Virus record (IMG/VR): IMGVR_UViG_3300031873_000001
Coordinates: 95,537 to 159,536 of that record
Origin: a virus
Length of the DNA: 64,000 nt
Strand: one strand, 5' to 3'
Positions 1 through 60,148 of the stretch are shown here, piece by piece. The notes below the pieces were generated by a model that saw only the letters and a program-made list of their open reading frames with translations, was not told where the DNA came from and made no database searches. The position numbers were made by a program, and so were the translations under genes. Position 1 is the stretch's first letter. Each line of letters starts with the position of its first letter.

Positions 1-904
1 GGGGCATACCAGGCTCGTCGGTGTTCATCCCCGGGTCCAGCAGATCGCCCAGCGGGGCCTCCATGTGGAGACGACCTACGGGATCCGCATGTCGACGCCT
101 CCGAGCTTCAACCTTGCCCCGGGGAGCGTTAAGATCGGCTTTTCGATGTGGGAGTTCATTCCCTTCCCGCAAGCCTGGGTCGCCGGGACGAACATGGTAG
201 CCGCGAACTTCGTTCCCTGCGAGCAGAATAAGCAGTTATGGATTGAGGCCGGATGCACTCAACCCGTCTACGTCATACCCCTGGGTGCGGATGTGGAGGT
301 CTATCAGTATTATGAGCGGCCGCCCCGGGAGACTTTCACCTTCGTCATGGCCGGGACGCTCTCAGCTCGGAAGAACCCCAATATGGTCGTGGAAGCCTTT
401 CTCGACCTGTTCAAGGACGTGGACGACGTCTACCTGTATATAAAATCCGCTCCCTATCTCGCTCATGGATTTAACTTTGATAAGATCAAGGTCATAAATG
501 ATCTCTATGAAGAGGGGGAGATGGCTGAGATGTATAAGTCCTGTGACGTATTCGTCTATCCGTCGCAGGGGGAGGGTTGGGGGATGTCTCCCTGTGAGGC
601 GATGGCGACGGGGATCCCGGCGATCGCCCCGGCGCACTCCGGCATGGCCGAATACATGACAGATGAGATCGGATATCCCATACGCTTTGAGCCTACCCGG
701 AACATAGTCGGGTCCGGCCCGGAGCTCAAGGGACAGCAGTTCGGGTTCGCTGTGATCAAGATCGAAGATCTGAAGGAGCTTATGTGGCACTGTTACAAGC
801 ACCGGGATGAGGTTCATGAGAAGGGAAAGAAGGCCGCACAAAGGATGCGAGAGAGATTTACTTGGGAAATAACGGCTCGTAGAATTTTAGAGATTTTGAG
901 ATGA
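1..904 (+). CDS. GT4-family glycosyltransferase, 5'-truncated by the window edge
   Basis: The frame is open from base 2 without a stop, so the true start lies before the window. The protein has a GT-B C-terminal half: a V-M-A-G-T-L-S-A-R-K-N-P segment of nucleotide-sugar-binding type, then an E-x7-E motif (EGWGMSPCE) followed by an A-T-G-I-P loop, both typical of retaining GT4 enzymes. It should transfer a sugar from a nucleotide sugar; the acceptor is unknown. With the GT2, GT4, radical SAM and methyltransferase genes downstream it suggests a glycan or DNA modification cassette. The last codons (872-904) differ in style from the body of the gene and are repeated at 1372-1404, evidence that the endonuclease downstream rebuilt this 3' end. 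Confidence 0.85.
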   Translation, partial: GHTRLVGVHPRVQQIAQRGLHVETTYGIRMSTPPSFNLAPGSVKIGFSMWEFIPFPQAWVAGTNMVAANFVPCEQNKQLWIEAGCTQPVYVIPLGADVEVYQYYERPPRETFTFVMAGTLSARKNPNMVVEAFLDLFKDVDDVYLYIKSAPYLAHGFNFDKIKVINDLYEEGEMAEMYKSCDVFVYPSQGEGWGMSPCEAMATGIPAIAPAHSGMAEYMTDEIGYPIRFEPTRNIVGSGPELKGQQFGFAVIKIEDLKELMWHCYKHRDEVHEKGKKAAQRMRERFTWEITARRILEILR

Positions 905-1404
905 GGAAAATAGATTTAACTACTATTGCAGACCCCCGTAGAAGAGCCAAAATTCTGAGGGATAGAAGAAACTATCAGAACAACAAACCGGCTCGCCACA
1001 AATCTTGGCAAAAGTGGTATCGTAAGAATAGGACTGCGAAGCTCGCTCGTGATAGACAATATAGGAAAGATCACCCGATAGATAAGCGCGCCTATCATCT
1101 TAAGTCTGTGTATGGACTTTCGTTGAAGGATTATGATGCTTTATATAAAAGGCATAAGGGGAGATGTGCTATCTGTGGGGTGTCCGTTAAACATCCCTCA
1201 GATCCAGAGGCTACGCATAGTAATATGGCTACGGTTGATCATGATCACGTTACCGGGAAGGTGAGGGGTATTCTCTGTAAGATACACAACATCATGTTGG
1301 GATTGGCTGGGGATGATCATGAAATCTTAAAAGAGGCCATCAAGTATCTTAGGGAATTTGGTCGGGAACACACGGCAAGGAGAATTTTGGAGGTGCTGAG
1401 ATGA
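901..1404 (+). CDS. Free-standing endonuclease VII-type HNH homing endonuclease
   Basis: 167 residues. The basic N-terminus, rich in Arg/Lys/Tyr, is followed by YGLSLKDYDALY, a C-A-I-C-G zinc knuckle, VDHDHVTGKVRGILC and an N-x-x-L-G-L helix. This is the pattern of the recombination endonuclease VII family (T4 gp49-like His-Me finger), often found as solitary mobile genes in phages. The start overlaps the stop of the glycosyltransferase by 4 bases. The C-terminal residues (TARRILEVLR) are not endonuclease sequence: they repeat the end of the upstream glycosyltransferase (TARRILEILR). The ORF is more AT-rich than its neighbours. Role inferred: a mobile gene cutting phages that lack it. Confidence 0.85.
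   Translation: MRKIDLTTIADPRRRAKILRDRRNYQNNKPARHKSWQKWYRKNRTAKLARDRQYRKDHPIDKRAYHLKSVYGLSLKDYDALYKRHKGRCAICGVSVKHPSDPEATHSNMATVDHDHVTGKVRGILCKIHNIMLGLAGDDHEILKEAIKYLREFGREHTARRILEVLR
1372..1404 (+). pseudogene. Displaced native 3' end of the upstream GT4 gene
   Basis: Eleven codons including the stop encode TARRILEVLR in frame with the endonuclease, matching TARRILEILR at 872-904. Several codons differ (gct/gca, cgt/agg, tta/ttg). The stop overlaps the next ATG, as expected of the original glycosyltransferase-to-next-gene junction. It is read as the pre-insertion end of the glycosyltransferase gene. Confidence 0.7.
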
Positions 1405-1676
1405 GAGCGCCTCTCGTTAAGGAAAGTTTATGGGAGCTTAGTAATTTACCGAGCATCGTTATAGATCGAAAAGACAGGGAGGGAACGATTGCATATATCA
1501 AAAAGATATTAGGAGTTGTCCAGCGGGATGATTTGGTGCGGTTGTTTATTCTAGATTTGAACGAGGTGAGTGACTGGATTAAAGTATGCGAGGTATATGG
1601 TAGAATGGCCAATAGAAGATTCAGGGCTGTCTTGGCTAGAAAGCGATCGGAATGGGATAGGAGGTTTCATCGATGA
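1401..1676 (+). CDS. Hypothetical protein (91 aa)
   Basis: Starts with ATG overlapping the previous stop by 4 bases and overlaps the next gene by 4 bases. The sequence is charged, mostly helical in character, with a basic C-terminus. No family recognised. Its AT-rich first part resembles the endonuclease gene before it. Confidence 0.7.
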   Translation: MRAPLVKESLWELSNLPSIVIDRKDREGTIAYIKKILGVVQRDDLVRLFILDLNEVSDWIKVCEVYGRMANRRFRAVLARKRSEWDRRFHR

Positions 1677-2050
1677 GTAGGTTTCTTCTTTGGATTCTGC
1701 CTATCGTAGCCCGTCTGCATCCCAAGAACTGGCGGCCCGACAGGTGGCAGTATCCCCAGCTCTGGTATTGCGGCCCGAAGAGGTGGAAGCGAAACAAGCG
1801 GGGTGTGATCTTACGGAAGGCCAGGCCGAGGCTGTTTCTCGAGTGGCTGTGCGGGGCAACGACGGGCCATGAGTTAAGCAAGACGGAGTGGGGCTACGGA
1901 GGGGGGAAGTTTATAGGCCGAAACTGCCGCTGGTGCGATAAGTTTGTTCAAGTTCCAAAGGATGAGGAGCCGACCAAGAGGGATTATCTGCTGGATATTT
2001 ACCTTAGTCATGGGGAGGGAGAGGAATGGAATACAAGCCCGTCAACCTAG
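1673..2050 (+). CDS. Hypothetical protein with a Cys/His-rich core (125 aa)
   Basis: The N-terminus is hydrophobic (SRFLLWILPIVARLH), then basic and aromatic, followed by GHELSKTEWGYGGGKF and an N-C-R-W-C-D knuckle. His, two Cys and nearby residues could bind one metal ion. No function recognised. Translationally coupled to both neighbours. Confidence 0.75.
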   Translation: MSRFLLWILPIVARLHPKNWRPDRWQYPQLWYCGPKRWKRNKRGVILRKARPRLFLEWLCGATTGHELSKTEWGYGGGKFIGRNCRWCDKFVQVPKDEEPTKRDYLLDIYLSHGEGEEWNTSPST

Positions 2051-2181
2051 ACGTTCTCCCGAAGGCGTTGCGGGAGAGGATTCTGAAGGATCGGAAGTGG
2101 ATCAGCCGGAACAGCAGGTGCATCTGCGGGAGCGGTGTGCGGTTCAAGCGGTGCTGTGCCAAGGGGATCAGGCTGAGATGA
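2026..2181 (+). CDS. Small SEC-C-motif zinc-binding protein (51 aa)
   Basis: A short ORF starting at ATG 2026 after a gggagagga ribosome site. Residues 36-47 read C-I-C-G-S-G-x-x-F-K-R-C-C, the C-x-C-x8-C-C/H pattern of the SEC-C zinc-binding tail of SecA, also seen in many small stand-alone proteins. It overlaps both the preceding gene and the next start (ATGA). A partner-binding or nucleic-acid role is plausible but not shown. Confidence 0.7.
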   Translation: MEYKPVNLDVLPKALRERILKDRKWISRNSRCICGSGVRFKRCCAKGIRLR

Positions 2182-2861
2182 CTATAAGACAAACTCGGAT
2201 CTGGATTCCCCGAACGAAACGCTTTGAGACCCTGTGGGCCGAGACGGTGTTCGGAGCAATCATCGCCCCGGTCGTGAGGAAGTATCGTGTGGCCTTGAAG
2301 TGGTTTTGGTTCACCCGTTACGGTTGTGTTCCGGAGCTCGATTCCGGGGACAGTGACTTCTCTAAAGTCCCCGCCGACTTTAAGGATCCCGAGACCGGGG
2401 AATTCCGGAGCGTCAAGTTCCGTTACTGCCTGTCCTCGCTTTCGCCCTATCTCTCGAAGCGTGTGCCGAAGTCGTTTGAGTCTATGGTCCAGAAGCTCGT
2501 TACGGAAGCCGGATGCTTGATCACGGACTTCCGGGACTACGACTACCTTGCCGACCTGGGAGGCTCCCGGCATCTCGAAGGCGAACCAACGAAGGAGCGA
2601 TCGAAGGAACGCGCTTTGCTCGTGGCCGAGAACTACTGCTCTCTTTCGAAACTCGTCCTGCATGCTTTGAAGGGTCCAGACCACTGGGGTCGGTATGCCC
2701 TTCCGCACAGCTGTTGGAATCCGTATGACGGGGAGACGCCCTTCCACGTGATCCACCACATCCTTTGTAACATGACCCACCTTCCGCTGTATAACGCCTT
2801 TCCCGTTTATTTCAAGGACGATAAGACCTACGAGGTCAGACTCTGCAAGGTGAGGTTCTGA
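2178..2861 (+). CDS. Hypothetical protein (227 aa)
   Basis: The frame is open further upstream, but ATG 2178 overlaps the SEC-C gene stop and gives a sensible N-terminus (MTIRQTRIWIPRTKR). The sequence is rich in aromatic residues and has scattered Cys and His, including SCWNPYDGETPFHVIHHIL near residue 190. No fold recognised. It ends on the ATG of the next gene. Confidence 0.75.
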   Translation: MTIRQTRIWIPRTKRFETLWAETVFGAIIAPVVRKYRVALKWFWFTRYGCVPELDSGDSDFSKVPADFKDPETGEFRSVKFRYCLSSLSPYLSKRVPKSFESMVQKLVTEAGCLITDFRDYDYLADLGGSRHLEGEPTKERSKERALLVAENYCSLSKLVLHALKGPDHWGRYALPHSCWNPYDGETPFHVIHHILCNMTHLPLYNAFPVYFKDDKTYEVRLCKVRF

Positions 2862-3322
2862 TGGATATCCTGGTGACGACGCCCAAGTCCGAGCACGAGA
2901 CCGCCAAGATGGAGGGGGAGGCGCTCGCTGATGGCAACGGGTACTGGTTCAGGGTCTTCCCGAGAAGGCCGAACGTCCAGAGGGGAGATAAAGTTTACTT
3001 CGTGGATGGGGGAGTCATCCGGGGCTACGGAGTCGTCTTCTGCGACGTGGAGCAGTTAGAGGAGCCCGAGGAATGCGACCTGACAGGCAGAATTTGGGGT
3101 CACAGGGGGTCATGGTGCGTCCGCTACCACGAATGGCAGTGGTTACCCCTCCCCGTCCCGTTCAAGGGCTTCCAGGGATTCCGGTACGTTTCCCGGATCC
3201 CGGGGCTACAGGAGAAGCTCAGGCAGGGACCCGGGAGGGCCTTGGTGGCCGTCGATAAGGCTTTGGGAGGAGCCCTATCGGTTGGCATGAAGGCTGTGCT
3301 GGGAAGCCATGCTGGAAGTTAA
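2861..3322 (+). CDS. Hypothetical protein, possible PUA/ASCH-like beta-barrel
   Basis: 153 residues. The central stretch G-D-K-V-Y-F-V-D-G-G-V-I-R-G-Y-G-V-V has the look of a PUA/ASCH/EVE-like barrel (a 'genuine exchange of ligand' strand pair followed by W-rich loops). Such domains bind modified bases or RNA. This is a resemblance, not a secure assignment. Overlaps the macro-domain gene by 14 bases. Confidence 0.65.
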   Translation: MDILVTTPKSEHETAKMEGEALADGNGYWFRVFPRRPNVQRGDKVYFVDGGVIRGYGVVFCDVEQLEEPEECDLTGRIWGHRGSWCVRYHEWQWLPLPVPFKGFQGFRYVSRIPGLQEKLRQGPGRALVAVDKALGGALSVGMKAVLGSHAGS

Positions 3323-3758
3323 GGGAGACATCTGGCGGTGCCACGGGGAAGGGGAGTGGGTCGTTGTCACAACCAATGGGGCGACACGCCGCGACGGGGC
3401 CTGCATTATGGGCAGAGGGGTGGCCCTGCAGGCCGCTCAGCTCTACCCTAAGCTTCCCTTCGAGCTCGGGGATCGGCTACGGATGTTCGGCAATCGGGTA
3501 TTCCTTTTCGACGATCGCAAGATCGCATCCTTCCCCGTGAAGCACTCCTGGGAGCAGAAGGCCGATCTCAAGCTCATAGAGTCGTCGGCCCGGCAGTTAG
3601 CTGTCCATGTCCGTGAGAAGGAGATCCCGATCATTTATCTGCCCCGCCCTGGGTGCGGTAACGGGCGGCTCGACTGGGAGAAGGAAGTGAAGCCCGTCCT
3701 GTCGAAGATTTTGGATGACCGTTTTTGCGTCTTAGAAAGAGAGGAGGTTAAACAATGA
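3309..3758 (+). CDS. Macro-domain (ADP-ribose-binding) protein
   Basis: 149 residues. The N-terminal strand DIWRC, then VVVTTNGATRRDGACIMGRGVALQA, matches the ligand-binding loop of macro domains (N-G-x-x-x-x-G-x-x-x-M-G-x-G-x-A). The second loop, LPRPGCGNGRLDW, matches the conserved G-x-G-x-G-G-L-x-W segment of the phosphoribosyl-binding region. Macro domains bind or hydrolyse ADP-ribose and its derivatives. In a phage this could reverse ADP-ribosylation or remove NAD-derived defence signals (inference). Length fits a single-domain macro protein. Confidence 0.8.
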   Translation: MLEVKGDIWRCHGEGEWVVVTTNGATRRDGACIMGRGVALQAAQLYPKLPFELGDRLRMFGNRVFLFDDRKIASFPVKHSWEQKADLKLIESSARQLAVHVREKEIPIIYLPRPGCGNGRLDWEKEVKPVLSKILDDRFCVLEREEVKQ

Positions 3759-3892
3759 CTTTCTTCTGGAACGTCTTTTGGCCTGTCCTGGCCGCCTCAC
3801 TGATCGTCCACGTCCTCGGATGGATGTGGCATCAGGCGATTTATCTTTTGAGGGCAATCGGAATGAGGGGTCCCAAGAGGAGGGGAAAATGA
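3755..3892 (+). CDS. Small membrane protein (45 aa)
   Basis: ATG 3755 overlaps the macro gene stop; TGA at 3890-3892 overlaps the next ATG. One hydrophobic helix (residues 3-28, FFWNVFWPVLAASLIVHVLG) is followed by a basic tail (RGPKRRGK), so an N-out/C-in orientation is likely. No family recognised. Confidence 0.6.
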   Translation: MTFFWNVFWPVLAASLIVHVLGWMWHQAIYLLRAIGMRGPKRRGK

Positions 3893-4104
3893 AGGTCGAA
3901 GTATCGGGAAAGATTAAATACGGCAAGAGGAAGAAGGCAATCGCCAGTCTCGCCAAAGACCTTACCGGAAGGTTCGATAGGGCCGTCGAGACAGCCAGGG
4001 GCGGGCTCGTTTCGGGAGAGCAGTTCAAGACGTCCCCGATCCTTGTCGTGACCATGTCCGTGGAGATGGAGGCTGAGATCAAAGATCGGGACTATGGGCC
4101 ATGA
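3889..4104 (+). CDS. Hypothetical protein (71 aa)
   Basis: ATG 3889 follows a gaggagggg ribosome site and overlaps the previous stop. The frame is open upstream but that part is out of register with the membrane protein gene and is rejected. A basic helical half (KIKYGKRKKAIASLAKDL) is followed by a strand-rich end. Unknown function. Confidence 0.7.
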   Translation: MKVEVSGKIKYGKRKKAIASLAKDLTGRFDRAVETARGGLVSGEQFKTSPILVVTMSVEMEAEIKDRDYGP

Positions 4105-4616
4105 AGATCGATGCGATCGTAGCTTCCTCTGTCGTCCCGAATGGAACCGGAGCATTCACGCCTCCCGAGGCGTTACAACACCTTGCCAAGATGATCAAGG
4201 ACACGGAGGTCTTTTTCCTTGAGGGGGATGAGTGGGGCCCTCCGAATGAGGATGGAGGTGATCTCCCGGAGAGCATGAAGAAGGTTGGGTTCGTAGACGA
4301 CGCCTTCGTGAAGGAGGGCGACCTTGTGGCCAAGATCAATATGGATGACACGACCGACCTCGCCCATGCCCTTGCGATCGCAGTACCCTTCGCCCCGACG
4401 CCGGAGTCTGCTTATTCCCATATCAAGCCGGAGGCTCCGAAGGCGTTCCCCGGGATCCGCATGCTTTGCAAGATCGACGCGAATGGAGCCCTCTTTATGC
4501 CCTACTGGGCTCGGGTCTGCTTCGCTACGGTCGTTCCCAACGAGCGGTGCGGGATTTTCCGGAGGGACGGAATGAACATCTGGCACGGGCCTCCTCTCGT
4601 GCATGGGGAGGTATAG
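4101..4616 (+). CDS. Hypothetical protein (171 aa)
   Basis: Begins with MKIDAIVASSVVPNGTG, contains an acidic Gly/Asp stretch near residues 40-60 and Cys residues near the C-terminus. No recognisable domain. Coupled by 4-base overlap to the gene before; its TAG shares a base with the GTG of the glycosyltransferase after it, so all probably lie in one operon. Confidence 0.7.
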   Translation: MKIDAIVASSVVPNGTGAFTPPEALQHLAKMIKDTEVFFLEGDEWGPPNEDGGDLPESMKKVGFVDDAFVKEGDLVAKINMDDTTDLAHALAIAVPFAPTPESAYSHIKPEAPKAFPGIRMLCKIDANGALFMPYWARVCFATVVPNERCGIFRRDGMNIWHGPPLVHGEV

Positions 4617-14926: not shown

Positions 14927-15446
14927 GGAGCTGGGAGGACGTCCCCAGCCCGGGTCCGGATCGGGCCACTTCCGCAAGGAGGATGTCTTTTTCCCCGGCT
15001 TTTTATGCCAAGAGAAGGAGACTGCCAAGTCGTTTATGTCTGTCCAGTCGCAGTGGCTTCGTCAGCTCGATGTGCATGCGATGGAGAGAAGCAAGATACC
15101 CCTTCTTAATCTTTGCTTCACCCGTCCGGACGGGGTTCGGGAGTGGATGGGTTTTCCGGAGCAGGATGTTGAGAAGGTTTTGAATGAGAATACGGAAGAG
15201 TGGCAACTCGGGCCTAGCCAGCTCCCACCGATCTCTACCGAGAAGAAGAGCCAGCGGGTTTGTGTGGCTCATCTCGATGCGGCTATCCGGGACCGCAAGG
15301 AACAGGGAGACCACGACTACACCCTTGTCCGGCTTCACTTCACTAAAATATATTTCCCGGCGCCTCAGATGTGGTATCTGATGCCGCTGGATGATTTTAA
15401 GAAGGTCGTCAATCCGTCACTCCTAGGAAAGAATTGGAAACGATGA
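14895..15446 (+). CDS. PD-(D/E)XK nuclease, Hjc-like resolvase candidate
   Basis: 183 residues from TTG 14895. Early motifs H-E-K-K-L-A-K-E-L-G-G-R-P-Q-P-G-S-G, then K-E-D-V and Q-E-K-E-T, fit the E / G-S-G / D-V / E-x-K order of archaeal Hjc-type and related phage endonucleases. The later part has no known match. If correct, the phage has two junction resolvases (with the RuvC-like one), or this one serves another cutting step. The start is not certain because no ATG is available. Confidence 0.6.
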   Translation: MGLSHEKKLAKELGGRPQPGSGSGHFRKEDVFFPGFLCQEKETAKSFMSVQSQWLRQLDVHAMERSKIPLLNLCFTRPDGVREWMGFPEQDVEKVLNENTEEWQLGPSQLPPISTEKKSQRVCVAHLDAAIRDRKEQGDHDYTLVRLHFTKIYFPAPQMWYLMPLDDFKKVVNPSLLGKNWKR

Positions 15447-15595
15447 CTACTCTAAAATTATCTGGCATTTATAGGCTAAGAAACCTCTTTAACGGACATG
15501 CGTATGTCGGCTCCGCTGTTAATTTGAAAAGACGGAATGGGGAACACTTTAGGGTTCTTCGGAGCGGGGGAAAATGCGGCAAGCGCATTTGTTAA
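15443..15595 (+). pseudogene. Truncated GIY-YIG homing endonuclease
   Basis: ATG 15443 overlaps the previous stop. 50 codons give S-G-I-Y-R-L-R-N then H-A-Y-V-G-S-A and K-R-R-x-G-E-H-F-R-V-L-R-S-G, the first half of a GIY-YIG nuclease domain (GIY, YVG, catalytic-side Arg and His). It stops at TAA 15593-15595 before the Glu-containing helix. AT-rich compared with its neighbours. The fragment should be inactive. Its placement at a stop/start junction matches the other endonuclease genes here. Confidence 0.72.
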
Positions 15596-46948: not shown

Positions 46949-48094
46949 ATGAAGGAATTATTGACTGCCGTCGTCGATCTCTCGCAGAGCTTCAAGCTCG
47001 TGAACGTGTCTCCCCCCGGCTGGGGCGGGACCGTCCGGGCGATGAAGAAGCACAAGGACATCGACAACCCCTTCGCTTTGTGTCTAGGAGGTGATACGGA
47101 GGTTCCATGTTTGGACGGAAAAATCAGGTCACTGCATGCACTTGCAGAGGCTAATGCCGAGTTCTGGCTTTACTCCGTTGACCCGACAGGGATAGTCGTT
47201 CCCGGTCTTGCCCGGGTAAAGTATGTCGGGGTGCGTCCTGCCGTGGAAATTGCGCTTGATAACGGTGAGATTCTAACCTGTTCTCCGGAGCACCGCTGGG
47301 TCAAACGTGATGGGTCTTTCGTCGAAACGAAGGCTCTGAACGTAGATGATTCTCTGATGCCATTCAGGACGACAAGCAGTGTGTCAAAATCAAGAATGGC
47401 TCGTGGAATTGTGGGGCATGAGATGGTTTACCATCCCGGCCTCGGGTGCTATGGCCTTACGCATTGGGCTGTAATGCGGGAGATGGGTTTAGGCTGTCCC
47501 TCCGCCGAGCATGTCGGGCACCATCTCAATGAAGACCCTCGAGATAACCGCCCTGAAAACTTAGTTTGGATGTTGCGGGATTTCCATAATAAGCATCATG
47601 GAAAGGACAAGGTTCAGGCGATGCGGTTAGCGTGGGATAAAAAGTGGAGATCGGACCCGGAATTCAGAAGGTTGCATACGAAAAAGTCCAAAGAGACTAC
47701 GTTGAAGCAATGGGCCGAAATGTCTCCCGAAGAGCGAGAACGTCGGTCGGGACTTCTCAGGGATCAGTCTTACAGGAGTGGTTTGCTTGGCGGTCGTCCG
47801 TTCGGAACTTCTCAGTCTGCGGATGCGATAGAGAAGATTAGGCAGGCAAATCTTCGGAGAAACTATGGTTCGGATCATGGGAAAAAGGTCGGCGAAGGAA
47901 AGCGAAGGGCCCGGGAAGCTCGAGAGGCTCAGAACCACTTTATAGTTAAGATCGATTTTCTCGATACCATCATTCCGATGTATGATGTCGCTGTTAAGGG
48001 AATTCATACGTTCGCCATATCCGCAGGGGTTTTCTCGCATAACTCCTACTGGATGAAAAGCCGGGGCGACAAACCGCACCACAAGGAGGACTGA
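46949..48094 (+). CDS. N-terminally tagged small protein interrupted by an intein
   Basis: 381 residues as translated. Residues 1-44 and 366-381 are the host protein: a tag (MKELLTAVVDLSQSFKLV) followed by W-G-G-T-V-R-A-M-K-K-H-K-D-I-D-N-P-F-A-L, joined after splicing to S-Y-W-M-K-S-R-G-D-K-P-H-H-K. That second part resembles a short 'K-K-H-x-x-I-x-N-P-x-A-L-x-x-x-M-K' motif I associate with phage structural proteins. Residues 45-365 are the intein. The mature product would be about 60 residues, so the intein is five times longer than its host. Confidence 0.85.
   Translation: MKELLTAVVDLSQSFKLVNVSPPGWGGTVRAMKKHKDIDNPFALCLGGDTEVPCLDGKIRSLHALAEANAEFWLYSVDPTGIVVPGLARVKYVGVRPAVEIALDNGEILTCSPEHRWVKRDGSFVETKALNVDDSLMPFRTTSSVSKSRMARGIVGHEMVYHPGLGCYGLTHWAVMREMGLGCPSAEHVGHHLNEDPRDNRPENLVWMLRDFHNKHHGKDKVQAMRLAWDKKWRSDPEFRRLHTKKSKETTLKQWAEMSPEERERRSGLLRDQSYRSGLLGGRPFGTSQSADAIEKIRQANLRRNYGSDHGKKVGEGKRRAREAREAQNHFIVKIDFLDTIIPMYDVAVKGIHTFAISAGVFSHNSYWMKSRGDKPHHKED
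47081..48043 (+). mobile_element. Intein with HNH homing endonuclease domain
   Basis: Block A C-L-G-G-D-T-E-V-P-C begins at Cys45. Block B is L-T-C-S-P-E-H-R-W with the conserved His. An HNH_3-type endonuclease core (V-G-H-H-L-N-E-D-P-R-D-N-R-P-E-N-L) sits in the middle. Blocks F/G are V-K-G-I-H-T-F-A-I and V-F-S-H-N with the terminal Asn365 and +1 Ser. All splicing residues are present, so it should be active. The base composition is more AT-rich than the flanking exteins. Confidence 0.9.
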
Positions 48095-48095
48095 C

Positions 48096-48536
48096 ATGAA
48101 AAAGGAAACTCGAGCCGTTCAGCTTCTGGCTTCGATGTGCGGGGAGGAGCTCTTTGACGCTCGGGAGAGGTCGATCTGGGACGTCAAGAACAAGCTCTCC
48201 ACGAAGGAGTTCCTGCGGGCTGGCCGTTACATCTCGGGAGGGTTCGGCTTCTGGGGTCACTCGGCCCTCGCCACGAACCCAGAGCTCGCCGATGCGTGGA
48301 TCGAAGCCCTCCGGCAGAAGGGTTACTCTGACCTGGCGATCGTCCTCTTTGGAGACTTCAGAGACGCCAGGCACATCGGTGACATGCTGGAAGACGAGAA
48401 CATGACCAAAGAGCAGGCCATCCAGATCATCAAGAAGCAGGCGATCAACCCGAAGGAAGTTCGCCGGATCTCGGAGGAAGAGGGAGCCTATACGAACGCC
48501 CTCGAGGATCCCGAGTTCACGAAGTTCTTCATGTAG
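48096..48536 (+). CDS. N-terminally tagged hypothetical protein (146 aa)
   Basis: MKKETRAVQLLASMCGE is of the C-G-E subgroup. Downstream G-F-G-F-W-G-H-S and acidic helices with QAIQIIKKQAINPKEV. Unknown. Confidence 0.73.
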   Translation: MKKETRAVQLLASMCGEELFDARERSIWDVKNKLSTKEFLRAGRYISGGFGFWGHSALATNPELADAWIEALRQKGYSDLAIVLFGDFRDARHIGDMLEDENMTKEQAIQIIKKQAINPKEVRRISEEEGAYTNALEDPEFTKFFM

Positions 48537-48539
48537 ACC

Positions 48540-48947
48540 ATGAGAACCCTGCTTGAAGCGATTCGGTCCCTTGCTGGGCTCCTAAGCGTCCGCACAACGG
48601 ACGACCTCGGGGAGTCCCCATTTTACGCCCGGCTGAAGGATACGCCACAGCGGGACAAGAAGCTGGCGACCGAGCTCATGAAGATCGACGATGACATCTG
48701 GCGGAGCAAGGGTTGGGACGACGCCTCGGGGCCCTGGGGGGACTGGGACGGTTATAAGGAGAACGTAGAGGTCGCCGTTAGGAGGCTCGGGGTTAAGCCT
48801 AGCTCCCTTTCGGAGCGGGTGTGGGAGATCCTCGAGAACGAGAACTACCATTCGATCAACGGGGCCCTCGATGACCTCGCGATGTATAAGGTCAAGCACT
48901 ACACCGACGCTCAGATCAAGAAGCTGTTTCGGAGCAAATCCCAATGA
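48540..48947 (+). CDS. N-terminally tagged hypothetical protein (135 aa)
   Basis: MRTLLEAIRSLAGLLSVRTT is very close to the starts at 43511 and 43771. The body has DDASGPWGDWDGYKENVEV and a helical C-terminus. No match recognised. Confidence 0.74.
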   Translation: MRTLLEAIRSLAGLLSVRTTDDLGESPFYARLKDTPQRDKKLATELMKIDDDIWRSKGWDDASGPWGDWDGYKENVEVAVRRLGVKPSSLSERVWEILENENYHSINGALDDLAMYKVKHYTDAQIKKLFRSKSQ

Positions 48948-48956
48948 GAGGGTGCT

Positions 48957-49232
48957 ATGGACATGACACCGGAGGAAGCAAGGGTCGTTCAGAAGGTCGA
49001 GCACTACCTTCGGGGAATAGACTTTCACAACATCGTGGGGATGCTTTCGGGAGGCATTTCCAACGATCTCAGGTTCGCCGGGGTTGATCAGAAGGTGAGC
49101 GTGAAATTATCCCATCGGTTGGTAGCACTTATAGACGTGCAGTACCTGGAAGGGACTCGGCAGAAGCTCCATGATCTGGCGAATAACCAGTCCCTGCTTC
49201 TGGACCTCGTTCGGGCCTCAATGATGGCATAG
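48957..49232 (+). CDS. Hypothetical protein (91 aa)
   Basis: ATG 48957. No tag at the N-terminus (MDMTPEEARVVQKVEHYL), so it marks the end of the contiguous array. Helical. Unknown. Confidence 0.68.
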   Translation: MDMTPEEARVVQKVEHYLRGIDFHNIVGMLSGGISNDLRFAGVDQKVSVKLSHRLVALIDVQYLEGTRQKLHDLANNQSLLLDLVRASMMA

Positions 49233-55578: not shown

Positions 55579-57150
55579 ATGCCCGAATATCTGTCGCCTG
55601 GAATCTATATCCAGGAAAAGAGCGAAGGCGCCAGGGCGATAGCTGGTGTCGGGACGTCCACCTGCGTGTTCCCTGGCATCGCTGAGCGAGGCCCGGTCGA
55701 CGCTCTTATCAGCAACGCTCCGTACCCGTTGTTCATCACGGGCTATGCCGACTACGAGACCAAGTTCGGCAGAATGAACCGCTACACCGACGGCGGCACG
55801 GTCTACGAGTTCTTCGACCTGCCCCAGTCGGTGGCCATGTTCTTCAACAAGGGCGGTCTGCGGGCTTATATCGCCCGGCTGGTCGGAGCGGACGCCGTAA
55901 CAGCCAAGCACGTCACCCCGTCCAACGAGTGGACGATCTGGGCTGGGAAGTGGTACGGGAAGACCACTCTCAAGGAGCCCGGGAAGTGGGGCAACCGGAT
56001 CGTGATCACGGTCACCCCGAACGAGGACTACAACCCGCTCAAGTATGACGTGGCTGTGTTCTACCAGGACGCCCCAGCCTCGGAGGTCTTGCAGGTCGAG
56101 GCGTTCACAGCAGTCGACTTCGTCGATGCCGCTTCTCCGCAGTATTTCCCGGAGGTGATCAACGCCGGGTCGAACTTCATCTGGGTGGAGAAGGGGATCG
56201 GTGGAGTGCCCGCGGCGCTTCCTTCCGGAACGTCCTGCTCGGGCGGAACGGAGGGGACGGCGCCCACCCAGGCGATCTGGGGGACATCGCAGTCCGGGGC
56301 GCTCGCAAGCCTCAACAGCATCGACGAGATGTTCATGCTCGTGGCTCCGGACCAGATGTGGTATACCGATGGCGCGACAGCGGCGGCAGTGCAGGGGGCG
56401 TTGATCGACTACGCCGACTACCGCAAGTATGTCTTCGCCATCTGCACACCTCCGAGCGGTCTTTCTCCGCAGGACTCCCTGACGTTCATGCGGACAACCC
56501 TCAACAAGAACTCCCAGCGGTATGCCGTCTACTATCCCTGGGTGAAGATTCAGGACCCGCTCAACCTCGGCAGGCCGAAGCTGTTCCCGCCTGTCGGTCT
56601 GGTCGCCGGGGTTTATGCCGCGACGGACAACAACCGGAACGTGGCGAAGGCGCCTGCCGGGATCACGGACGGGGCATTGTCCGGGATCATCGATCTCGAG
56701 CGGACGCTGACGAAGGCCGAGCGGGATCTGATTTACCCCGCACGGATCAACCCCCTGATCAGCACCCCTCAGACGGGCCGCTGTGTCTGGGGCGCCCGGA
56801 CGGGTTCCCTCGATTCCCTGTGGCGTTACGTGTCGGTCGTGCGGACCTTCCAGTACCTCGAGAAGAGCACGTTCGATGCCACGCACTGGATCGTGTTCGA
56901 GAATAACGACGCCGGGACCCGGCTGAAGGCCAAGCTCCAGATGGAGAGCTTCCTGTTGTTCCACTACAACGAGGGCTACTTCGCAGGGAATACCCCGGAG
57001 GAAGCCTTCTTCGTGGTCTGCGACGAGACCAACAACCCATCGGAGGCAGTGGAGGCCGGATTCCTCTATATCAAGGTGGGGATCGCCCCGCAGAGACCAG
57101 CCGAGTTCGTGGTCTTTCAATTTATGCAAAAAACAACCAAGGCTCAGTAA
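55579..57150 (+). CDS. Contractile tail sheath protein
   Basis: 523 residues. Starts M-P-E-Y-L-S-P-G-I-Y-I-Q-E, the classic sheath N-terminus; then G-V-G-T-S-T-C-V-F-P-G-I-A-E-R-G-P, A-P-A-G-I-x-D-G-A-L-S-G, I-N-P-L-I and G-R-C-V-W-G-A-R-T near residue 400, and a C-terminal W-R-Y-V-S-V-V-R-T domain. It surrounds the tail tube and contracts at infection. The last 13 sense codons (57109-57147) are AT-rich and were evidently rebuilt by the endonuclease gene downstream; the original end survives at 57944-57985. Confidence 0.94.
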   Translation: MPEYLSPGIYIQEKSEGARAIAGVGTSTCVFPGIAERGPVDALISNAPYPLFITGYADYETKFGRMNRYTDGGTVYEFFDLPQSVAMFFNKGGLRAYIARLVGADAVTAKHVTPSNEWTIWAGKWYGKTTLKEPGKWGNRIVITVTPNEDYNPLKYDVAVFYQDAPASEVLQVEAFTAVDFVDAASPQYFPEVINAGSNFIWVEKGIGGVPAALPSGTSCSGGTEGTAPTQAIWGTSQSGALASLNSIDEMFMLVAPDQMWYTDGATAAAVQGALIDYADYRKYVFAICTPPSGLSPQDSLTFMRTTLNKNSQRYAVYYPWVKIQDPLNLGRPKLFPPVGLVAGVYAATDNNRNVAKAPAGITDGALSGIIDLERTLTKAERDLIYPARINPLISTPQTGRCVWGARTGSLDSLWRYVSVVRTFQYLEKSTFDATHWIVFENNDAGTRLKAKLQMESFLLFHYNEGYFAGNTPEEAFFVVCDETNNPSEAVEAGFLYIKVGIAPQRPAEFVVFQFMQKTTKAQ

Positions 57151-57152
57151 GA

Positions 57153-57944
57153 ATGGATCGGCGTCCGCTCTATAAATGGATGACTGAAGATTGGCTTCGG
57201 AGCCAATACGTATCGGGCAGGAAGTCTCTCCATCAAATCGCGGTCGATCTTGGGGTGACCAGCAACGCCATTCAAATGTGGATGGTGAAGTTTGGCATCC
57301 CAAGAAGGTCGTGTGCGGACGCTATCTATCTTACAAGAGAGAAACACGTTAGCCTCTCGGAAGAAGCGATTCAATTTTTGGTCGGAGAGCTTCTGGGAGA
57401 TGGGCATCTTCACTCCGATAATGAGAGATCGGCAAGATTTCAGAGTGGTTCTAAGCACCTGGGGTATATCCAATGGTTGGACAAGACCTTCAGAGGCTTC
57501 GGACTGTATCGATCTGGGAAAATACAAAAGACCAGAACGGTCTGGAAAAGTGGAGCCATAAGTGTAGTTCATCACTATGCATCTCTGAGGTATCCCGAGC
57601 TACTCTCATTGCACAAAATGTTTTACGACAACGGAAGAAAGATCGTTCCTTTGGATGTCGACTTAAAACCTCTGGTTGTAAGACAGTGGTATATCGGAGA
57701 CGGATACTTGCTTCACCGTCCAGGAGGACGCCGTCGCAAAATACTATTGTCTACGCAGGGTTTTTCTGTTGATGATGTCGAGTTGCTCGTTAGGAAAATC
57801 CATAATTTAGGATTTAAAGCTTCTCGGCAGAAGTCAAACAATGTGATAGGAATTTCAGATTCTTCGACGAATAGTTTCCTGTCTTACATTGGTTGTTGTC
57901 CAAATGAGATTCAACCTTTTTACGGCTACAAGTGGGCCGCGTAG
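57153..57944 (+). CDS. LAGLIDADG homing endonuclease inserted after the sheath gene
   Basis: 263 residues. N-terminal helix-turn-helix (LHQIAVDLGVTSNAIQMWM). Two LAGLIDADG-type motifs: F-L-V-G-E-L-L-G-D-G-H-L (75-86) and V-R-Q-W-Y-I-G-D-G-Y-L (about 175-185), each with the catalytic acidic residue. A monomeric two-motif enzyme. Markedly AT-rich relative to the phage. Its stop codon shares a base with the displaced sheath end. It starts two bases after the rebuilt sheath stop. Confidence 0.88.
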   Translation: MDRRPLYKWMTEDWLRSQYVSGRKSLHQIAVDLGVTSNAIQMWMVKFGIPRRSCADAIYLTREKHVSLSEEAIQFLVGELLGDGHLHSDNERSARFQSGSKHLGYIQWLDKTFRGFGLYRSGKIQKTRTVWKSGAISVVHHYASLRYPELLSLHKMFYDNGRKIVPLDVDLKPLVVRQWYIGDGYLLHRPGGRRRKILLSTQGFSVDDVELLVRKIHNLGFKASRQKSNNVIGISDSSTNSFLSYIGCCPNEIQPFYGYKWAA

Positions 57945-57985
57945 TCGTGTTCCAGTTCATGCAGAAGACGACGAAGGCTCAATAG
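57944..57985 (+). pseudogene. Displaced original 3' end of the tail sheath gene
   Basis: Codes V-V-F-Q-F-M-Q-K-T-T-K-A-Q and a stop, identical in protein to the current sheath end at 57109-57150, but with different codons at 10 of 13 positions. Its GC-rich third positions match the body of the sheath gene. Confidence 0.85.
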
Positions 57986-58740: not shown

Positions 58741-59319
58741 GTGGGCAGGCGCAGATTTGCCGAATACCTTCAACCGAACGTTTTCTATCTCTTGGATTAT
58801 TCCCTGGGGGAGACGAGCATGTTGGCTCAGCTCATCCAGGCGGGTTTTCGGAGCGTAACCGCGCCGGAAATCACGCTCGACACCGAGGAAATCAAGGAGG
58901 GAAATTGGCCATTCAAGCGCAAGCTTATTACCGGAGCCTCGGTCAACACGCTGACCTTATCAAAGGGGGTCACGTTTTACGACAGCGACTTCTGGCGATG
59001 GACAAGCCGGGCGGCGGTTGGCGCAAAAACCTTCGGCCTCGATATCGGGATGTTTGGGCTCAAGAGCGGGTTTCGCAAAGACCTGTTCTTGATTCAGTTC
59101 CTGCGGGGCGTTCCGAACGCCATGAAGTTCTTCCTTCCCTTCCGGGGTTGGGATCGGGCGTTAAACATCTTCCCGGCCAAGCTGTGGATGCTCGAGAACA
59201 CGATCCCGACCCGTTACAAGGTTGGGACGGACTTCGACTCCCAGTCTGGGGAGATATCGATAGCCGAGGTTGAGCTGTCGATGGAGAACTTCGACGAGAT
59301 AGCGATCGCTTCTCTCTAA
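58741..59319 (+). CDS. Second gp19-like tail tube/tube-cap paralog
   Basis: 192 residues from GTG 58741 (ggaggtga upstream). Same layout as the first tube gene: A-G-F-R-S-V-T-A-P-E-I-T-L-D-T-E-E-I-K-E-G, K-R-K-L-I-T-G-A-S-V-N-T-L-T-L-S-K-G-V and S-D-F-W-R-W, with an extra 30-residue insertion. Myophages often encode a second tube-like protein that sits at the tube-baseplate junction (T4 gp54/gp48 class); that role is inferred. Confidence 0.78.
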   Translation: MGRRRFAEYLQPNVFYLLDYSLGETSMLAQLIQAGFRSVTAPEITLDTEEIKEGNWPFKRKLITGASVNTLTLSKGVTFYDSDFWRWTSRAAVGAKTFGLDIGMFGLKSGFRKDLFLIQFLRGVPNAMKFFLPFRGWDRALNIFPAKLWMLENTIPTRYKVGTDFDSQSGEISIAEVELSMENFDEIAIASL

Positions 59320-59346
59320 TTTTTTTTGAACGGAGGTGTGTAACTT

Positions 59347-59703
59347 ATGGCGTATGTAGATGAGGAGACTTTTTACCAGATCAAAGCCGAGGTGGTCGCC
59401 AGGGACGTAACATGCCGACACTGCGATGCGGACCAGAACCTGGTGATGCACAAGGTCAACCCGGAAGCCAATGGGATCGCCGGGGACTACGTTCTTCTCT
59501 GCGAGTACTGCGACTTCATCGCCGAGAGCGAAAAGGGAAGGAAGCGGTTTGGGGACAAGATCCCCGTGCGGGCAAACTTCCTTCTTCCCCGGGGTCAGAG
59601 AGATCTGCTCATCGAAACCGCCCGTGCCCAAAATATCAGCGCCAGCGAGTTCATCCGGGACCTGCTTGACCGGGAACTCAGGCCAGCGCACCTGCGGAGA
59701 TAA
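59347..59703 (+). CDS. Degenerate HNH-like zinc finger fused to a ribbon-helix-helix-like end (118 aa)
   Basis: Residues 22-61 hold C-R-H-C-D...V-M-H-K-V-N-P...V-L-L-C-E-Y-C, the layout of an HNH/treble-clef domain missing the second catalytic His. The C-terminal 40 residues (VRANFLLPRGQRDLLIETA, then ISASEFIRDLLDREL) read as a ribbon-helix-helix DNA-binding fold. Could be a tail-region regulator rather than a nuclease. Confidence 0.65.
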   Translation: MAYVDEETFYQIKAEVVARDVTCRHCDADQNLVMHKVNPEANGIAGDYVLLCEYCDFIAESEKGRKRFGDKIPVRANFLLPRGQRDLLIETARAQNISASEFIRDLLDRELRPAHLRR

Positions 59704-59728
59704 CCTTTAGTCTGGATGAGATGAGCTT

Positions 59729-60148
59729 ATGAATTCCTTCGGCCCGTTCAGCCCGGCTTTCTGGGAGGCGGTATCGAAATACGGAGCCTTGACGGTCGTT
59801 GCTGTGGTTGTCATTCTTGGAGCTCTGTGGTTTGCGCTCAAGACCCTCGACAGGCTGATCAAGGATAAGACGGAGCAGAGCAACAAGGCTACCGAGGAGC
59901 GGAAGTCGTTGACCGAGAAGTTTTTGGCCTCACTGGAAAGGGTTGTTGCGGATTATCGTCAGGTGACGATTGAGAATACTAAAGTCCTGCAGTCCCTGGT
60001 CGATAGCGTAAACAGAAGAGAGGATGGGTGCCTGGCCCACCAGAGGAAGCAAGATGAAAGCCTGTCCATTGCCGTGGCACAGCACGGGGTGATCGCCGAG
60101 CGGGTAGTGAGCATCGATCGCCGGCTCGAAGGGATAGAGAAGAGCTGA
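59729..60148 (+). CDS. Membrane-anchored coiled-coil protein (139 aa)
   Basis: One TM segment at about 20-40 (LTVVAVVVILGALWFALK) followed by a long charged coiled coil. The layout resembles Rz-type spanins or membrane-tethered helper proteins, but no lysozyme is adjacent. It lies just before the receiver-domain gene. Confidence 0.65.
   Translation: MNSFGPFSPAFWEAVSKYGALTVVAVVVILGALWFALKTLDRLIKDKTEQSNKATEERKSLTEKFLASLERVVADYRQVTIENTKVLQSLVDSVNRREDGCLAHQRKQDESLSIAVAQHGVIAERVVSIDRRLEGIEKS

Follow-up and report, generated by a model that had tools for sequence, protein, structure and literature searches.

A gene end replaced by an insert, which contained a nuclease gene together with a diverged copy of the same gene end, was found at six genes of one phage genome. 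Each insert is very probably a splicing-free homing cassette, which would consist of an endonuclease gene and a recoded copy of whatever part of the host gene the insertion severs, as judged from the sequences. The genome (labelled G000) is an IMG/VR virus record of 159.5 kb, and the window, the whole stretch of DNA that was analysed, comprises its last 64 kb. The whole of G000 was aligned to G001 (IMGVR_UViG_3300035660_000001, 160 kb), which was found by a search with the GT4 protein, and the junctions were read. Both are metagenomic contigs, and G001 is the one close relative without the inserts with which all six cases were compared. The features are given in Table 1.

Table 1. Features of the replaced gene ends (positions in the window unless marked G000)
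Feature	Coordinates	Strand	Remarks
GT4-family glycosyltransferase gene, host of insert	2-904	+	5' end outside window
B', recoded live GT4 3' end, presumed insert-borne	869-904	+	ITARRILEILR*
Endonuclease VII-type (His-Me finger) ORF, putative homing endonuclease	901-1404	+	nuclease sequence proper up to about 1363, then displaced GT4 end in frame
B, displaced native GT4 3' end	1364-1405	+	GGGAACACACGGCAAGGAG...GATGAG; 40/42 bases as in G001
91-aa AT-rich ORF between displaced GT4 end and old downstream gene	1401-1676	+	
Native downstream gene	1673-2050	+	in G001 joined directly to GT4 end
Tail sheath gene, host of LAGLIDADG insert	55579-57150	+	PHROG tail sheath 1.2e-60; Pfam Phage_sheath_1, _1C
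B', recoded live sheath 3' end	57109-57150	+	VVFQFMQKTTKAQ*
LAGLIDADG endonuclease gene of sheath cassette	57153-57944	+	LAGLIDADG_2 9.8e-22; absent from G001
B, displaced native sheath 3' end	57944-57985	+	40/42 as in G001
Case 1, GT4 3' end			Endonuclease_7
Case 2, tail sheath 3' end			LAGLIDADG_2
Case 3, DUF932 5' end	G000 48412-49178		HNH-type
Case 4, ThiF 5' end	G000 71067-71623		Endonuclease_7; geometry as case 3
Case 5, ResIII-type helicase 3' end (~40 residues)	G000 82420-83255		HNH-type
Case 6, Dam methylase 3' end	G000 59273-60011		LAGLIDADG_1

The glycosyltransferase gene and its insert

The GT4 ORF (Pfam Glycos_transf_1, 4e-18) was found to end in ACG GCT CGT AGA ATT TTA GAG ATT TTG AGA TGA (872-904), and the endonuclease ORF that follows it was found to end in ACG GCA AGG AGA ATT TTG GAG GTG CTG AGA TGA (1372-1404). 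The peptide endings TARRILEILR and TARRILEVLR, from which the original prediction started, were thus present letter for letter; 5 of the 11 codons differ, 4 of them synonymously, and the repeat extends slightly further to the left (TGG/CGG GAA). The repeat is not due to chance, since the second copy scored 44 against TARRILEILR and the runner-up scored 22 among 9,567 stop-anchored peptides from both strands of the 159.5-kb record. Both stop codons were found within ATGA overlaps, the next ORFs starting at 901 and 1401. The two overlaps had been taken as kept by both copies, and both are present, but the ORF that follows the displaced copy (1401-1676) is missing from G001, in which the native ATGA overlap joins the GT4 end to the homologue of 1673-2050. 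This ORF, perhaps a second insert, had zero matches in the Pfam, PHROG and G001 searches. The sequence ATGAG was observed at either end of it.

The 901-1404 ORF was found to match Pfam Endonuclease_7 (9.5e-20, residues 66-151 of 167) and the PHROG endonuclease VII (2e-30). Reading of the protein revealed CAIC, DHDH, an arginine (GKVRG) and an asparagine (HN), whereas the EndoVII fold's second zinc motif, CX2C, was present as CX2H (CKIH), with one His ligand. The Endonuclease_7 domain stops at residue 151 of 167 and is followed by the native GT4 tail, which agrees with the predicted in-frame fusion of the displaced end to the endonuclease. No relative of this endonuclease was found by a single-protein search of viral_contigs, and a DNA search of the phage collection gave no match to window 1-2200.

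The intact GT4 gene of G001 is 90% identical to that of the window. It ends in EHTARRILEVLR, the terminus also being read as GGGAACACACAGCAAGGAGGATTTTGGAGGTGCTGAGATGAG, and continues directly into the homologue of 1673-2050 with no insert between them; the insert-free junction is TTTACTTGGGAA/CACACGG, and the endonuclease ORF is absent. Window 1672-2200 was found to align to G001 3487-4015 at 92%. The endonuclease gene lies within the old GT4 3' end, since 40 of the 42 bases of the displaced copy are identical to the native end of G001. Over the last 14 codons, the live end matches G001 at 30 of 42 bases (71%), while the GT4 body just upstream of it is 92-93% identical. The third-position GC (GC3) is 0.23 in the live GT4 end vs 0.72 in the gene body. 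From its sequence, the present GT4 end is read as an AT-rich recoded replacement supplied by the insert. The claim that the GT4 end had been replaced and the old end displaced is borne out by G001, which holds the displaced version; in this relative, which lacks the insert, the end of the GT4 gene agrees with the displaced copy and does not differ from both copies.

No Rfam intron was found at E<=1 in window 700-2100, and no Rfam intron, group I included, was found at the gathering threshold in 119.5 kb spanning all six cases. The GT4 insert gave no Intein_splicing match and the GT4 gene is closed by the TGA at 902-904; no inteins were present at the six end-replacement sites.

Six replaced gene ends in one genome

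Four of the six cases were found to be of the 3' type, A-[B'-nuclease]-B (GT4, tail sheath, helicase and Dam methylase), and two were found to be of a mirror-image 5' type, A-[nuclease-A']-B (DUF932 and ThiF). The GT4, sheath, helicase and Dam genes of G001 are uninterrupted, and all six inserts are missing at the same sites in G001, which makes each of them a presence/absence polymorphism. Three nuclease classes were present in the inserts (PF02945, PF03161/PF00961, and HNH by PHROGs); the HNH label of cases 3 and 5 was taken from PHROGs because Pfam gave no match.

The LAGLIDADG case named in the original prediction was found at the tail sheath gene, where VVFQFMQKTTKAQ is present in both copies and, of the two, the displaced one is native-like. 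In the live sheath end 13 of 14 codons, including the stop codon, were changed relative to G001, all synonymously, and the insert-free junction is GCCGAGTTC/GTCGTGTTC. The DUF932 case contained the native-start stub MSHNLMERADGKGHSMFWFG, followed by the nuclease, the restart MSHNLMQRSDGKGHALFWHS and, at once, native sequence. A Shine-Dalgarno-like sequence was found before the restarted gene in the 5' type (AAAGGAGGAAGTCATG; AAGGAGGTGAG). The two nuclease families with 3'-end replacement that had been proposed are therefore both real, but that proposal was too narrow, as four more cases were found, two of them at 5' ends. The wording that the families adopted a strategy holds for the outcome; that each insert homes as a unit is something we infer.

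In the first genome scan, the dominant collagen-like and out-of-frame arginine/serine-rich repeats were filtered out. A seventh candidate, at the contig ends (G001 67999-68183), was rejected; it contained no endonuclease and the repeat lies inside a tail tape-measure-like ORF. The last 100 bases or more of the record were observed to recur near its start (L015 1-760), in a tape-measure-like ORF, and this repeat is probably an end overlap or an assembly repeat. No coding-end repeat was found at the HNH genes at 65216, 87084 (minus strand) and 91138 of the record, and a score of 54 beside the gene at 87084 falls within a tRNA-rich stretch. About 30 tRNA genes, mostly clustered, were observed in L019 5242-11763, with two HNH genes among them.

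Direction of replacement, boundaries and composition

The displaced copies were found to be 93, 95, 98, 98 and 97% identical to G001 at the nucleotide level (cases 1, 2, 3, 4 and 6, respectively) and about 83% identical over a longer alignment in case 5, whereas the live copies were 71, 69, 63, 73 and 49% identical (cases 1, 2, 3, 4 and 6) and about 59-69% identical in case 5. Since the working copy is diverged and the displaced copy native-like in all six cases, the working copy is the newcomer, and the direction of replacement is demonstrated by these comparisons. A duplication of the gene end in place, followed by divergence of one copy, would also leave two short end copies flanking an inserted gene. 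Relaxed constraint would then predict the opposite of what was found, as it is the functional copy that has diverged and the displaced copy that stays near the relative, in six cases and at a terminase gene of an unrelated contig (L162, below); such a duplication has next to no probability.

The third-position GC of the six live ends was 0.23, 0.43, 0.65, 0.40, 0.23 and 0.32, compared with 0.71-0.84 in the gene bodies and 0.40-0.58 in the nuclease genes. In five of the six cases it was close to the nuclease-gene value or lower, and in case 3 it was intermediate between nuclease and body. In cases 1 and 2 the identity of the body was found to stay at about 92-93% until about 20 nt from the insertion point, with sharp boundaries. 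The longest exact run common to live and displaced copies was 5-11 nt.

Integrase-borne elements at tRNA genes or icd restore the gene ends that they interrupt. Site-specific integration of that kind would give the same outcome, with an element-borne copy of the end and the old end at the far side, but the inserts code for homing-family nucleases and no integrase, and no long identical core was found, the longest exact run being the 5-11 nt given above. This explanation is highly improbable.

The main rival is a one-off recombination, in which an intergenic homing endonuclease gene of a divergent phage was copied in by break repair, with the gene end of the donor entering by one-sided co-conversion and an illegitimate join closing the other side at the cut. 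In T4, free-standing endonucleases are known to co-convert flanking sequence (PMC2988022), the live ends are of foreign composition, and for a single 3' case the final picture would be the same. Co-conversion tracts normally extend well into the gene, however, whereas in most cases the divergence was found to set in no more than about 20 nt from the insertion point, and six equally precise geometries in one genome, two of them reversed, would need repeated illegitimate joins. This rival is weakened by the abrupt boundaries and by the recurrence in two polarities, and it is considered unlikely.

Replaced gene ends in unrelated viral contigs

The scan of nuclease loci for flanking end repeats that had been suggested was carried out on 133 and about 83 viral or prophage loci, by comparing peptides of the 350 nt before the nuclease gene with those of the 350 nt after it. 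Cross-locus pairs served as the null, with a 99th percentile of 48 for the 133 loci and 42 for the ~83 loci, and the six known cases were all recovered in the ~83-locus scan as positive controls. The 8 aligned HNH rows were too varied to yield a search pattern, and the HNH loci were sought with a consensus protein instead.

Six further independent cases were found in unrelated viral contigs, which establishes the recurrence of the structure. Clear new cases of the 5' type were L066 (score 138), L065 (73), L061/L062 (71) and L043 with L068-L072 (71-74), followed by two lower-scoring cases whose repeats are anchored precisely on a start or stop codon, L226 (48, 5' type) and L162 (45, 3' type). 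The 5' ends were thus replaced at five outside sites (L066, L065, L061/L062, L043/L068 and L226). The host families outside G000 include epimerase, MmcB-like, ERCC4, PTH2, metallophosphatase and terminase. In the L043 group (L043, L068-L072) the nuclease was found on the strand opposite to the PTH2 host gene, and the HNH gene at the PTH2 site was of full length (200 aa) in one phage, with a version of 70 aa in a lineage of relatives.

At the L162 terminase gene, an insert-free relative (L262) matched the displaced end at 35 of 39 positions and the live end at 25 of 39. The HNH ORF reads on in frame into the displaced terminase end, as happens at window 1404, so that the in-frame fusion was seen independently at this second locus. 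An ORF of 46 aa, ribbon-helix-helix-like by eye, was observed at L162 2311-2451, after the replaced end of the terminase gene and before the HNH gene, and is probably part of the insert.

The yield was about six independent sites in a rough sample of some 136 HNH-type loci. No further convincing case was found in about 80 endonuclease VII-type loci scanned, zero cases were found in 16 loci from GenBank phage records, and nothing was found at loci L160 and L161 of the GIY-YIG/LAGLIDADG screen. Two candidates were rejected. The gp102-HNH-gp104 locus of Streptomyces phage Galactica (score 146) contains whole-gene paralogues of a four-copy family, and the HNH gene of Bacteroides phage crAss001 lies between two tRNA-Gly genes with different anticodons (GCC, TCC), which are not a duplicated end.

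Other inserts and elements

In G001 114140-114310 (L022 2140-2310) a gene tail was observed to be doubled (ELDGTNPPAL/ELDGTNPPAI) around a 78-nt insert coding for CPKCR, and the second tail copy was identical to the gene end in G000. This may be the reciprocal remnant of an end-replacement cassette, and we would guess that the 78-nt insert is a nuclease relic. The ORF at window 46949-48094 contained an in-frame insert (47077-48049) with Intein_splicing and HNH_3 matches, missing from G001, which is an intein in a small ORF. Another in-frame insert missing from G001, with LAGLIDADG_3 and a weak intein match (L015/G000 2647-3684), was found to interrupt an ATP-grasp/GARS-like ORF (1829-4189). 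A 53-aa GIY-YIG domain fragment (window 15434-15595), a possible nuclease remnant, lies in a 157-bp stretch absent from G001, and a Twister-P5 ribozyme match (48.9 bits vs a gathering score of 37.6) was present at G000 55745-55802 (L017 15745-15802).

Comparison with known systems

Replacement of C-terminal gene ends by mobile ORFs is known from fungal mitochondria, in atp6 of Allomyces macrogynus and in atp6, atp9, cox2 and nad3 of Glomus sp. (PMC3630166). The native atp6 end was 91.2% identical to that of a related isolate and the two ends were 63.5% identical to each other (PMC3630166). As in the fungal type, where the endonuclease is LAGLIDADG or GIY-YIG, the phage 3' cases contained an endonuclease ORF in the 3' part of the gene, a foreign C-terminal end borne by the insert, and a native end which remains downstream and resembles that of relatives (here 83-98% to G001 for displaced and 49-73% for live ends). 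Unlike the fungal type, the present inserts occur in phages, use endonuclease VII-type and HNH nucleases as well, number six in one 160-kb genome, and also replace 5' ends (cases 3 and 4 and the five outside sites), of which PMC3630166 describes none.

The seg and mob genes of T4-like phages are free-standing and intergenic, with cleavage sites away from the insertion point (PMC2988022). The inserts resemble them in being non-intron genes between phage genes, present or absent among relatives, but here the insertion point falls within a coding sequence, whose end is restored by the insert. Insertions of mobE, mobA or seg are known to split genes, as in Aeh1 nrdA and T4 gene 60 (PMC2988022); they likewise place an endonuclease gene in coding sequence with no intron or intein, but the split genes stay two pieces which assemble as proteins, whereas here one intact host protein would be restored. 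F-CphI of cyanophage S-PM2 is an endonuclease VII-type homing endonuclease which acts with a neighbouring intron in collaborative homing (PMC6083498). Cases 1 and 4 resemble it in having a free-standing phage enzyme with a putative Endo VII catalytic motif; no intron of the kind that F-CphI works with was found at these phage sites. No description of end replacement in phages, or of the 5' type anywhere, was found in the open-access literature searched, which is weak evidence; the 3' form is already known from fungal mitochondria, and the phage occurrence and the 5' form are apparently, as far as such a search can tell, without earlier description.

Proposed mechanism

In the splicing-free homing cassette proposed above, a native gene A+B would receive the insertion between A and B, giving A-[B'-endonuclease]-B in the 3' type or A-[endonuclease-A']-B in the 5' type, and the host protein would be read from A+B' or A'+B. 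The displaced native piece remains as debris beside the endonuclease and, at GT4, is fused to its C-terminus. The endonuclease is expected to cut the gene end where it is still uninterrupted, in an insert-free phage infecting the same cell, and the cassette-bearing genome would then serve as the repair template through A on one side and B with the downstream DNA on the other. The recoding of B' may block self-cutting and may limit excision by recombination between B' and B. We infer this cleavage specificity, the movement as a unit and the purpose of the recoding from the structure of the inserts; no B'-endonuclease unit was seen in two phages of different background, so that movement as a unit is putative.

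Significance

Homing endonucleases favour conserved coding targets yet must not destroy them, and introns and inteins avoid this by splicing. The end-replacement cassettes would be a solution free of splicing, in which insertion near a gene end is combined with the element's own rewritten end, in both polarities and with several unrelated nucleases. On a narrow balance we favour the view that they are a third general vehicle of phage homing endonucleases beside introns and inteins, acting as recoded-rescue drives which move as units and were reached convergently by at least three nuclease classes in two polarities. The cassettes would be nature's counterpart of engineered homing drives that carry a recoded rescue. 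For annotation, caution is needed, as some gene ends would be recent foreign replacements and a small ORF next to a nuclease gene may be a displaced stub. The protein-level end repeat that flanks the nuclease gene is a sequence signature which pinpoints the insertion point, and that point would in turn suggest a recognition site for phage nucleases that are not otherwise characterised.
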